This document shows, piece after piece, positions 38,297 to 41,003 of a stretch of 64,000 bases of DNA. Source of the stretch: Streptacidiphilus pinicola (GTDB lineage: Bacteria; Actinomycetota; Actinomycetes; Streptomycetales; Streptomycetaceae); the NCBI RefSeq assembly GCF_003258295.1, contig NZ_QKYN01000014.1, forward strand, positions 1 to 64,000, read 5' to 3'. The notes under the pieces are model-generated. The model was not told the origin of the DNA. It saw only the letters and a list, made by a program, of their open reading frames with translations, and did not search any database. How positions within the stretch are numbered: the first letter of the stretch is position 1; every line of letters begins with the position of its first letter. The position numbers and the translations under genes were made by a program.

Positions 38297-38851
38297 TCAG
38301 TCCTCGGCGAGCCGGGCCAGGACCGCCGGGCGCAGCGCTGCCACGTCGACGTCGAGGGCCATCAGGACCGCCTGGGCCGTGGTGTGTTCGGCGTCGTCGC
38401 CGCCCGCGGCGAGGAGGCCCAGCAGCATGTGCTCCGTGCCGAACCGCTCGTGTCCGAGCGCCTTTGCCTCGCGCAGCGTCTGTTCCAGCGCGAGCTTGGC
38501 GAGCGGGGTGTAGGCGGGGCGGGGGAACTGGAACGCGCCCTCGCCGAAGTTCGCGTCGGCGCGGCGCTTGATCTCGGCGACATCGATGCCGATCGACGCC
38601 AGCGCGTCGGTCGCCGGCTTGCCGCCGGTCGCGGGGACGCCCGCCTCGGTCAGCAGACGGACCGTCACCTCGCGGGCGCGGCCCAGCTCGACGCCGTGCG
38701 CGGCGAGGACGGAGCCCGCCGTGCTCTCGGGGTCGGCCGCCAGGCCGAGCAGCAGGTGTTCCGTGCCCATGAAGTCGTGGCCGAGGGCGATGGCCTCGTC
38801 CTGACCGGCGACGATGGACCGCTTGGCGCGATCGGTGAAGTATTCGAACAT
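38297..38851 (-). CDS. Stand-alone Clp N-terminal (double Clp_N) protein
   Basis: This 184-aa protein consists of two Clp_N repeats: MFEYFTDRAKRSIVAGQDEAI, then HDFMGTEHLLLGL, and later YTPLAKLALEQTLREAKALG with ERFGTEHMLLGLL. There is no AAA+ module, so it is not a ClpC unfoldase. It could act as a decoy or adaptor that binds ClpC partners or substrates. It lies 2 bp after an HTH gene, forming a two-gene unit behind tandem operator-like repeats. Confidence 0.87.
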   Translation of the reverse strand: MFEYFTDRAKRSIVAGQDEAIALGHDFMGTEHLLLGLAADPESTAGSVLAAHGVELGRAREVTVRLLTEAGVPATGGKPATDALASIGIDVAEIKRRADANFGEGAFQFPRPAYTPLAKLALEQTLREAKALGHERFGTEHMLLGLLAAGGDDAEHTTAQAVLMALDVDVAALRPAVLARLAED

Positions 38852-38853
38852 CC

Positions 38854-39132
38854 TCAGCTCTCCTTGCCCGTGGCCTTGCGCCTGCTCGCATGCTTCTCGT
38901 GGACCGACTGTCGGCTGACCTGTAGCGCCGTCGCGACGCTCTGCCAGGTCCAGCCCTGGTCGCGTGCGTTGTCGACGTGCAGGCGTTCCAACTCCTCCAG
39001 CAGCCGGCGCAGCGCGACGACAGCGCTGAGCCCGACAGCCGGGTCCCTGGCCGTGACCTGGCTCAGCAGGTCGGCGGCCGCTCCCTTGTCGGTGGACGCG
39101 TCCGAGGACGCGGATTCCTCAGGAACTCCCAT
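38854..39132 (-). CDS. HTH protein, partner of the Clp_N gene
   Basis: This 92-aa protein has a helix RRLLEELERLHVDNARDQG, then a helix-turn-helix WTWQSVATALQVSRQSVHEKHASRRK at residues about 60-85. The basic tail and small size suit a DNA-binding repressor. ATG 39132 is within 4 bp of the first of two TGTCAGG-type repeats, so it very likely represses its own operon with the Clp_N gene. The inducer is unknown; heat or protein damage is plausible given Clp_N. Confidence 0.8.
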   Translation of the reverse strand: MGVPEESASSDASTDKGAAADLLSQVTARDPAVGLSAVVALRRLLEELERLHVDNARDQGWTWQSVATALQVSRQSVHEKHASRRKATGKES

Positions 39133-39135
39133 GGC

Positions 39136-39182
39136 TGTCAGGGTAGCCTGACAAGCACGGCGCGTGTCAAGGAAACCTGACA
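39136..39182. promoter_or_regulatory. Tandem operator for the HTH/Clp_N operon
   Basis: TGTCAGGGTAGCCTGACA (39136-39153) is a perfect 7-4-7 inverted repeat. TGTCAAGGAAACCTGACA (39165-39182) is the same element with one mismatch, 29 bp away. On the minus strand TTGACA (39172-39167) and TACCCT 18 nt on (39148-39143) form a sigma70-like promoter, so both copies overlap its boxes. Confidence 0.65.
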
Positions 39183-39192
39183 CGCGCCGTGC
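39155..39192. terminator. Hairpin after the ABC permease, overlapping the operator
   Basis: GCACGGCGCGTGTCA (39155-39169) pairs perfectly over 15 bp with TGACACGCGCCGTGC (39178-39192) around an 8-nt loop. It lies 32 bp past the permease stop on the minus strand. It could terminate the exporter operon while sharing bases with the next promoter. Confidence 0.55.
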
Positions 39193-39223: not shown

Positions 39224-40144
39224 CTACTTGGCCAGGCGGCCCAGCAGCAGCGAGGCGGCCGTCACGCCGAGAGTCGCGGCGACGGCGAGGACGCCGAAGT
39301 CCAGGCCCAGGTGGGCGTGGATGCCGAGCAGCAGGCCGCGCAGCGCGTCGACCTCGTAGCTGAGCGGATTGGCCTTGCTGACCGCCTGCAGCCAACCCGG
39401 CATCACGTCGACGGGGTAGAGCGCGTTGGAGCCGAAGAAGAGCGGCATGGTGATGGCCTGGCCGATGCCCATCAGCCGGTCGCGGGTCAGCACGATGCCC
39501 GCGATCGACATCGACAGGCAGGAGAAGAACGCCGAGCCCAGCACCACGACGACGGCCACGCCGAACAGGCGCAGCGGGTTCCAGGTCAGCGAGACGCCCA
39601 GCAGCGCCGCGATGACGACCACGACGAGGGCCTGGATCACCGACTTCACCCCGGCCGCGAAGGCCTTCCCGGTGACGAGGGCGGCCCGTGGCGTCGGGGT
39701 GACCAGCAGTTTGGTCAGCACGCCCGAGTCACGTTCCCAGATGATCATGATGCCGTAGAAGATGGCGATGAACATCGCGGACTGGGCGATGATGCCGGGC
39801 GCGAGGTAGTCGAGGTACGGGATCCCGCCGGTGGGGATGGCGCGTATCCGGGTGAAGGTCTCACCGAAGATCAGCAGCCAGAGGGCGGGCTGGACGGCGC
39901 GGGTGTAGAGCTCGGTGCGGTCGTGGCGCAGCTTCTGCAGCTCCACCGTGCACATCGCGCCGGCGCGGGCCAGCACGAGCCGCCAGGAGCTTCGCGGGGG
40001 CGGGGGCTTGAGCAGTAGGCGCAGCTCCACCGGGCGGGGGGCGGCCGCCAGTGTCGCGGTCCCGGTGGCGTTGCCGGGACCGGCGCCGGTGGCGGCCGCG
40101 GCCTCAGCGGAGACGGGCAGCGGTGGAACGGGTGCGGCGGACAT
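39224..40144 (-). CDS. ABC-2 permease, DrrB-like
   Basis: This 306-aa protein has a Pro/Ala-rich cytoplasmic N-terminus of about 75 residues, then six membrane segments. DrrB-type features are ELYTRAVQPALWLLIFGETFTRIRAI, YLDYLAPGIIAQSAMFIAIFYG, WERDSGVLTKLLVTPTPR (the ABC-2 cytoplasmic loop) and GSNALYPVDVMPGWLQAVSKANPLSYEVDALRG in two parts. ATG 40144 has GAGGGAGGGG upstream and lies 41 bp inside the ATPase gene, so translation is coupled. With the ATPase it forms a MarR-controlled exporter of an unknown, probably hydrophobic, compound. Confidence 0.85.
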   Translation of the reverse strand: MSAAPVPPLPVSAEAAAATGAGPGNATGTATLAAAPRPVELRLLLKPPPPRSSWRLVLARAGAMCTVELQKLRHDRTELYTRAVQPALWLLIFGETFTRIRAIPTGGIPYLDYLAPGIIAQSAMFIAIFYGIMIIWERDSGVLTKLLVTPTPRAALVTGKAFAAGVKSVIQALVVVVIAALLGVSLTWNPLRLFGVAVVVVLGSAFFSCLSMSIAGIVLTRDRLMGIGQAITMPLFFGSNALYPVDVMPGWLQAVSKANPLSYEVDALRGLLLGIHAHLGLDFGVLAVAATLGVTAASLLLGRLAK

Positions 40145-41003
40145 CGCGGAAATCCCCTCCCTCATCGGGTCGGTCGGCGCCGGCGAGACCCGCGCCGGCA
40201 TGGTGGCGGAAGACGTCCTCGAGGCTGACCCGCTCCGGGTCGGCCCCGAGCTGTGCGGCCAGTTCGGCGCGCAGCTCGCTCGGCGCGCCGACGGCCCGGA
40301 TCCGGCCGCGGTGCATGAGGGCGACGCGGCGGCAGTGCTCGTCGGCCTCGTCCATGTAGTGGGTGGTGACCAGCACCGTCATGCCGGTGCCGGCGCGGAC
40401 CTGGGCGATGCAGTCCCAGACCCCGGCGCGGGCCAGCGGGTCCAGGCCGATCGTCGGCTCGTCGAGGATCAGCAGGCGCGGCGCGCTCACCAGGGCCTGC
40501 GCCAGCTCCAACCGGCGCACCATGCCGCCGGAGTAGGTACCGGCCAACCGCCCGGCGGCGTCGGTCAGGTCGACGGCCGTCAGTGCCTCGTCCACGCGGG
40601 CCCGCCGTTCGGAGCGCGGCACGTCGAAGACGCGGGCGAACAGCTCGACGTTCTCACGGCCCGTCAGACCGCTGTCAGCGGAGAGCTGTTGGGGGACGTA
40701 GCCGAGCAGGCGGCGTACCTGCATGCGCTTGCGCGCGCAGTCCAGGCCGAAGACGGTGATCTTTCCGGCCGGGACGGGGAGCAGCGTGGTGATCGCGCGG
40801 ATCGCCGTGGTCTTGCCCGCGCCGTTCGGACCCAGCAGGCCGAAGACCTCCCCTTGGGCGACCTCCAGGTCGAGCCCGTCGACGGCCTTGGTGGCGCCGA
40901 AGGAGTAGCTCAGATCGGTGCAGCGCAGGGCGGGTTCGTCCGCGGGTTCGCCTGCGGTGGCGGCCTCGGTGCGGGCGTCGCCCGCGGCGGGTGCGGTGGT
41001 CAT
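40104..41003 (-). CDS. ABC transporter ATPase, DrrA-like
   Basis: This 299-aa ATPase has Walker A GLLGPNGAGKTT, Q-loop LGYVPQQLS, signature YSGGMVRRLELAQAL, Walker B LLILDEPTIGLDP and switch His VTTHYMDEADE. The DrrA-type C-terminal extension (GAPSELRAEL, SLEDVFRHHAG) is present. ATG 41003 overlaps the MarR stop by 4 bp. It powers the permease encoded downstream. Confidence 0.9.
   Translation of the reverse strand: MTTAPAAGDARTEAATAGEPADEPALRCTDLSYSFGATKAVDGLDLEVAQGEVFGLLGPNGAGKTTAIRAITTLLPVPAGKITVFGLDCARKRMQVRRLLGYVPQQLSADSGLTGRENVELFARVFDVPRSERRARVDEALTAVDLTDAAGRLAGTYSGGMVRRLELAQALVSAPRLLILDEPTIGLDPLARAGVWDCIAQVRAGTGMTVLVTTHYMDEADEHCRRVALMHRGRIRAVGAPSELRAELAAQLGADPERVSLEDVFRHHAGAGLAGADRPDEGGDFRDVRRTRSTAARLR

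Follow-up and report, generated by a model that had tools for sequence, protein, structure and literature searches.

A likely two-gene counterpart of mycobacterial ClpC2 in Streptacidiphilus, with tandem operators and a residue-base code in its HTH family

The closest described relative of the gene pair reported here is ClpC2 (Rv2667), a single protein in which a four-helix dimer domain precedes a cyclomarin-binding double Clp_N domain (PMC10030653). ClpC2 represses itself at CGTCAAC-N5-GTTGACG sites that in many species are doubled over the -35 and -10 elements with the start codon right behind, and cyclomarin relieves the repression, surplus ClpC2 then acting as a sponge for the drug that shields ClpC1 (PMC10030653). 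The dimer contains a D46-R57 salt bridge, and the authors propose that the Clp_N part contacts DNA, as the R185A/R189A protein binds less well; in M. smegmatis clpC2 mRNA rises 2.0-fold in the equivalent arginine double mutant and 4.6-fold in the dimer mutant R57A (PMC10030653). A 2026 study again describes ClpC2 as autoregulated and finds it raised by desoxycyclomarin and not by ecumicin or ilamycin (PMC12913811). The second related system is RelS-RelI (Rv2663-Rv2664), in which RelI is a member of the HTH family of the protein described below but is partnered by an rRNA-cleaving toxin rather than by Clp_N. That ClpC2 contains an HTH is already known, the RelI authors having earlier pointed out the similarity of RelI to an HTH region of ClpC2 (PMC13284704).

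The gene pair studied here (pair A) lies in a 64,000-nucleotide stretch of Streptacidiphilus pinicola DNA (contig NZ_QKYN01000014.1), hereafter the window. Its leading gene (38854..39132, minus strand; ATG 39132-39130) encodes a 92-residue HTH protein, a putative repressor, and is followed 2 nt past its stop codon by the start of a gene (38297..38851, minus strand) for a 184-residue stand-alone double Clp_N protein; with so short a gap the two genes look co-transcribed. Both reading frames proposed in the initial annotation are confirmed. The second product contains two Clp_N repeats (Pfam E 3.5e-21) and matches the ClpC1 N-domain chain with E 4.8e-25 and the ClpC2 chain 8ad9 with E 4e-11, while the first matches HTH_23 in Pfam with E 1.1e-4, its 22.4 bits falling below the cut-off of 24.6. 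A GTG at 39183, at the edge of the distal palindrome, offers an alternative start for the HTH gene; the ATG is preferred because the distance from operator to ATG is conserved in relatives. The recognition helix reads S73-R74-Q75-S76-V77-H78-E79-K80-H81. A route to the HTH through its fold was set aside: the AlphaFold2 model, from an alignment of the window protein and 8 close relatives, had a mediocre pLDDT of 72.6 and a helix at 63-88 without a turn, and a Foldseek search with it found no relative (best match E 5.0). The co-directional upstream neighbour, an ABC-2 permease of a DrrB-like exporter (39224..40201, minus strand), stands outside the system.

Two operators precede the pair. The proximal one (TGTCAGGCTACCCTGACA, 39136..39153, minus strand) is a perfect TGTCAGG-N4-CCTGACA palindrome that ends 3 nt ahead of the HTH ATG, and the distal one (TGTCAGGTTTCCTTGACA, 39165..39182, minus strand), whose start is 29 bp from that of the proximal palindrome, departs from symmetry once. 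These are the two near-identical 18-bp repeats previously placed ahead of the operon, and they bear out that claim, since a search for TGTCARG with at most one mismatch yields only these two sites in the window (4 strand matches) and none in 100 shuffles. A looser search allowing three mismatches was dropped as evidence in favor of stricter ones, its 3 hits being no excess over the 2.98 expected by chance. Across the 8.4 Mb genome the search with at most one mismatch adds one more place to the pair A sites, and its 5 strand matches do not exceed the 6 of a reversed-pattern control, so that the tandem placing of the sites, not their number, is what stands out.

The right half of the distal palindrome is also a possible -35 element (TTGACA, 39170-39165), which accounts for its one flaw, and the proximal palindrome contains a possible -10 element (TACCCT, 39145-39140). 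The strict promoter scan of the window calls no promoter at pair A because the spacer between these hexamers is 19 nt; a second HTH-Clp_N pair in the same genome (pair B, below) has TTGACA-N17-TACATT in the corresponding places. The sigma70-like promoter suggested under the repeats is thus plausible, its elements lying inside both sites, but not ideal. With 7 nt between the end of TACCCT and the ATG, the transcript is probably leaderless. A 17-bp hairpin surrounds the distal operator (39155..39192, minus strand), and the 68-nt stretch spanning both palindromes folds with a z of -8.1. The initial annotation described a 15-bp terminator hairpin of the upstream exporter sharing bases with the distal repeat; a hairpin is present and does overlap the distal operator, but it has 17 bp, lacks a T-run and is not called by the terminator scan of the window. 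As 4 of its 17 pairs are altered on both sides (compensatory) among five genomes of the genus, selection probably maintains the hairpin, which may act as an insulator or as a terminator lacking the U-run. The exporter lies upstream in 5 of the 13 type-A loci tested, all from one genus, and the extended hairpin occurs in those five exporter-bearing loci; an exporter terminator is therefore incidental to the system.

The HTH protein is homologous to the N-terminal domain of ClpC2. A profile of the HTH protein and its relatives aligns with one built from the N-domains of 14 fused ClpC2-type proteins with an hhalign probability of 96.9 (E 1.6e-10) over 49 columns covering the HTH. The ClpC2 salt bridge D46-R57 falls on E46 and R57, neither of which varies among 17 HTHs. 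Against the 8ADA chain itself the match has an E of 0.22; that solved fragment (residues 4-72) ends at residue 72 with '...KSMGV', just ahead of the recognition helix, which reads TKQAAQKRF in relatives. The profile also finds fused HTH-Clp_N proteins in a family (f4) that we take to be Mycobacteriaceae: in 13 of 19 new loci (L188-L200) the double Clp_N lies in the same ORF as the HTH, and each of these 13 carries a pair of CGTCAAC-N5-GTTGACG-type sites with the ATG 1-3 nt past the second. Pair A and ClpC2 share an HTH-bearing N-terminal dimer domain, a double Clp_N with homology to the N-domain of ClpC1, and palindromes, often two, over the -35 and -10 with the start codon directly after. They differ in that ClpC2 is a single polypeptide whereas the window has two ORFs 2 nt apart, in their sites (GTCAAC-N5-GTTGAC against GTCAGG-N4-CCTGAC), in the residues that correspond to Ser76 and Glu79 of the window protein (Ala and Lys in ClpC2), and in an extra D-P-x-x-G-L loop of the window HTH. 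In a 56-row Clp_N tree, whose alignment excludes L043 (the stretch held a stop) and L025 (the ORF runs on to 499 residues), type A occupies one clade and its split proteins do not group with fused ClpC2, while the Clp_N of L023, counted under pair B, groups elsewhere; the deep branching order is not settled by this tree, and we make no claim as to whether the split or the fused form is older. Neither the two-gene form nor a residue-base code is described in a title or abstract among the literature matches listed, although the 2023 Cell work on ClpC2/ClpC3 might mention them.

Tandem operators are a trait of the HTH family. A single site finder detects them, 24-32 bp apart, upstream of 149 of 185 HTH-family loci, leaving 36 without a detected pair, but in 0 of 1801 control windows of equal length from other parts of these loci and in 0 of 925 shuffles; the 185 include HTH branches without Clp_N as well as species repeats (L036-L039 repeat L005-L008, and L172 repeats L019). 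Where Clp_N lies behind the HTH the tandem sites are found in 130 of 153 loci. The finder requires a GTCA core, which is accordingly not itself a result, and leaves bases 6 and 7 free apart from an arm symmetry of at least 5/7. Among 169 distinct HTHs with sites the spacing, tallied within 24-32 bp, is 27 bp in 67, 28 bp in 76, 29 bp in 25 and 26 bp in 1.

The two free bases covary with two residues of the recognition helix. With half-sites numbered N-G-T-C-A-6-7 and 196 distinct HTHs compared, residue 76 ranks first of 52 HTH positions for base 6 and residue 79 first of 52 for base 7, and both ranks hold in all four redundancy sets (196, 71, 42 and 21 sequences). The counts that follow pool training and fresh loci, deliberately exclude the distal-right half-site, which coincides with the -35, and pass over the rare Gly76, Tyr79 and Met79 (one core each). 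Ser or Thr76 is matched by G at base 6 in 101 of 109 half-sites and Ala76 by A in 420 of 444. At base 7, Glu79 goes with G in 49 of 49 half-sites, Lys79 with C in 304 of 367 (61 of the remainder being T), Arg79 with C in 33 of 40, and Ala, Thr or Asn79 with T in 36 of 45. Gln79 is mixed and predicts poorly; the rule 'not C' proposed for it in advance failed, 13 of 49 half-sites having C. The chemistry fits, as Lys or Arg79 would contact the G and Glu79 the C on the opposite strand. The excluded half-site differs from the other three: base 6 is G in the distal-left, proximal-left and proximal-right halves of 29, 27 and 30 of the 31 Ser/Thr76 loci, respectively, and A in the distal-right half of 28 of them. 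Half-sites with A at base 6 number 34 in these loci, and 28 of them are the distal-right half with its TTGACA -35.

The rule was fixed before fresh loci were fetched. The 79 fresh HTH matches gave 51 scored loci after removal of 8 from the own genome, 2 with a core identical to training, 1 duplicate and 17 with fewer than two half-sites. On the 13 informative loci, those not of the common type, the rule is right for base 7 in 27 of 33 half-sites, against 14 for always guessing C, and for base 6 in 30 of 41, against 22 for always guessing A. Over all 51 loci the rule improves little on these guesses (165 of 186 against 157 for base 6; 139 of 178 against 126 for base 7) because most belong to the common type. 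The code thus beats a simple guess on informative fresh loci, imperfectly. One fresh combination missing from the training table, Ala76 with Glu79 (L232), has GTCAAG in 4 of 4 half-sites.

This covariation bears on how ClpC2 itself contacts DNA, since it favours the N-terminal HTH as the part that reads the bases. The Clp_N arginines may add affinity, and both parts may touch DNA. On our reading of the alignment, the window Clp_N keeps the R185 equivalent (R127), as does ClpC1, and has alanine in place of R189.

The nearest named relatives of the window Clp_N are those of Streptacidiphilus anmyonensis, S. melanogenes and S. neutrinimicus (84-86% identity) and S. jiangxiensis (81%), and pair A also occurs in four Streptomyces (62-72%). 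Within the genus, the window HTH is present in 9 of the 14 genomes searched, in 8 of them with Clp_N, and pair B in 12 of 14. Loci were drawn mainly from the strongest matches, so that pair counts are not unbiased frequencies. One locus (L012, 1467-1758) has the HTH and both operators intact, with no Clp_N found behind the HTH. At E <=0.001, and with branches lacking Clp_N included, the HTH family is matched in 260 of 393 genomes from the class and in 130 of 396 from the phylum. Other branches without Clp_N are the group C HTH proteins (L016, L026-L032) and proteins in which the HTH is joined to DUF3887; one of the latter is encoded in the same genome as pair A (L272, 1135-1764, contig C85) behind sites of the form TGTAAAG...TTGACA, the left half of which deviates from the GTCA core. 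Cyanobacteria have stand-alone double Clp_N genes (L044-L052) that are 30-35% identical to the window Clp_N, and tblastn of the window HTH against these loci gave no match.

The genome of pair A holds further Clp_N copies. Pair B (contig C229; L019/L172) has the same gene order, 2-nt gap and tandem sites (TGTCAACCATGGTTGACA and TGTCAACCTACATTGACA) as pair A but differs in its HTH, which is 55% identical, and its operator, GTCAAC; a search of the genome with this operator found nothing beyond its own two sites. A fused ClpC2-type gene (L274, 1230-1931, contig C188, 233 residues) has a third type of operator, CGTCAAT/C ... CTTGACG with N5 (CGTCAATTTCATCTTGACG and CGTCAACTTACTCTTGACG), and a start codon 1 nt behind. 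A further gene (L273, 1237-1989, contig C146) encodes 250 residues in which a CcdA/RHH-like N-terminus is fused to a double Clp_N; the N-terminus matches Pfam CcdA just under the cut-off (E 3.7e-4), so that by sequence a different type of DNA-binding domain is here joined to a ClpC decoy.

We consider it likely that pair A is a two-gene counterpart of ClpC2, that is, an autorepressed sensor and sponge for ClpC1-binding peptides or unfolded protein. That the HTH protein binds DNA is strongly indicated, and it is very probably the repressor acting at the palindromes. As a dimer it would place the recognition helix of each subunit on one GTCA-GG half-site, Ser76 specifying base 6 and Glu79 base 7, and two dimers on sites 29 bp apart would cover the -35 and -10 and close the leaderless promoter. 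The Clp_N protein would be a decoy copy of the ClpC1 N-domain, to which substrates and drugs bind. It probably tunes the repressor: a ClpC1-directed peptide antibiotic or an unfolded protein occupying Clp_N would cause the repressor complex to release the DNA, both proteins would be made, and the surplus Clp_N would soak up the ligand and shield ClpC1. Eighteen positions that we selected around the ligand groove, three of them corresponding to published ClpC2 contacts, were compared with ClpC1 of the same genome; pair B Clp_N is identical at 17 and pair A Clp_N at 11, the changes including F80 to Y and H77 to R. Pair B could thus bind the same ligands as ClpC1, whereas the ligand of pair A may have shifted. 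Those three positions are the cyclomarin contacts named for ClpC2, F96, F172 and E181 (PMC10030653), which in our own mapping correspond to F2, Y114 (for F) and E123 of the window Clp_N.

An autorepressor without coupling, in which the HTH senses a signal of its own and Clp_N is simply the output, as a sponge or as a competitor for ClpC1 substrates or adaptors, would suit both the separation of the two genes and the locus L012, which lacks a detected Clp_N behind an intact HTH and operators. We nevertheless think it unlikely, as the ligand of ClpC2 is bound by the Clp_N part (PMC10030653), and as a loop of the HTH is distributed as a docking element would be: at least three of the four residues of D30-P31-x-x-G34-L35 occur in 167 of 170 HTHs followed by Clp_N, in 0 of 17 fused ClpC2 proteins and in 18 of 41 others. 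This loop could dock Clp_N in trans and perhaps make the contact between the two proteins, or it could just reflect shared ancestry.

A stress switch that works by proteolysis, with the HTH protein a ClpC1P substrate and Clp_N competing with or assisting its degradation, appears improbable. Clp_N is a substrate-receptor domain and clpC2 is mildly heat-induced (PMC10030653), both in keeping with such a switch, but the ClpC2 repressor is described as released by its ligand and not degraded (PMC10030653). The initial annotation suggested that Clp_N may link proteolysis to repression; its repressor side, with Clp_N tuning, stands in the graded form given above, while regulated degradation is less supported, the relative ClpC2 being a ligand-sensing repressor and sponge. 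A toxin-antitoxin-like pair with the HTH as a RelI-type antitoxin is very hard to credit even though RelI (PDB 9sdc) is the best sequence match among solved structures (profile E 1.6e-4) and its authors link it to the HTH region of ClpC2 (PMC13284704), since the partner here is Clp_N and not a RelE-type toxin.

The same HTH family is also joined to another Clp receptor. In L033 (1282-1659) and L292-L306 a stand-alone ClpX zinc finger is fused to the HTH, and 14 of 16 loci have GTCAGG/GTCAAG palindromes with N5 upstream, 13 of them two. All half-sites listed have G at base 7, as Glu79 predicts, and base 6 follows Ser76 with one exception and is mixed A/G in the four Ala76 rows with sites. By sequence these proteins look like a ClpX analogue of ClpC2, in which the ClpX zinc finger would act as sensor in place of Clp_N. 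CtsR, HspR and ClgR also regulate clp-type genes, but through other operators and folds.

The widespread family, the fused form, the second copy in the same genome and the readable DNA code went unnoticed in the initial annotation. It is quite possible, though we propose it tentatively, that Actinobacteria have a general class of decoy-receptor switches. In these, receptor domains copied from Clp unfoldases (the N-domain of ClpC, either fused or in trans, a fused zinc finger of ClpX, and one RHH-like-Clp_N fusion) would be linked to repressors, most of which belong to a single HTH family with a two-residue, two-base code. Several insulated copies could then operate alongside each other in one genome, each protecting the Clp machinery from a peptide or proteotoxic load of its own. 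As a corollary of that proposal, ClpC2 would read bases through its N-terminal HTH and not through a Clp_N helix. The code makes the DNA-reading part of ClpC2 testable by two substitutions and allows operators to be predicted for uncharacterised members of the HTH family. ClpC1 is a target for antituberculosis drugs, and mycobacteria are known to blunt one of these by means of ClpC2; Streptacidiphilus and Streptomyces are relatives of the producers of ClpC1-directed drugs. Should the two-gene form act in the same way, Streptacidiphilus and Streptomyces would possess this defence too, sometimes in several copies with different operators.
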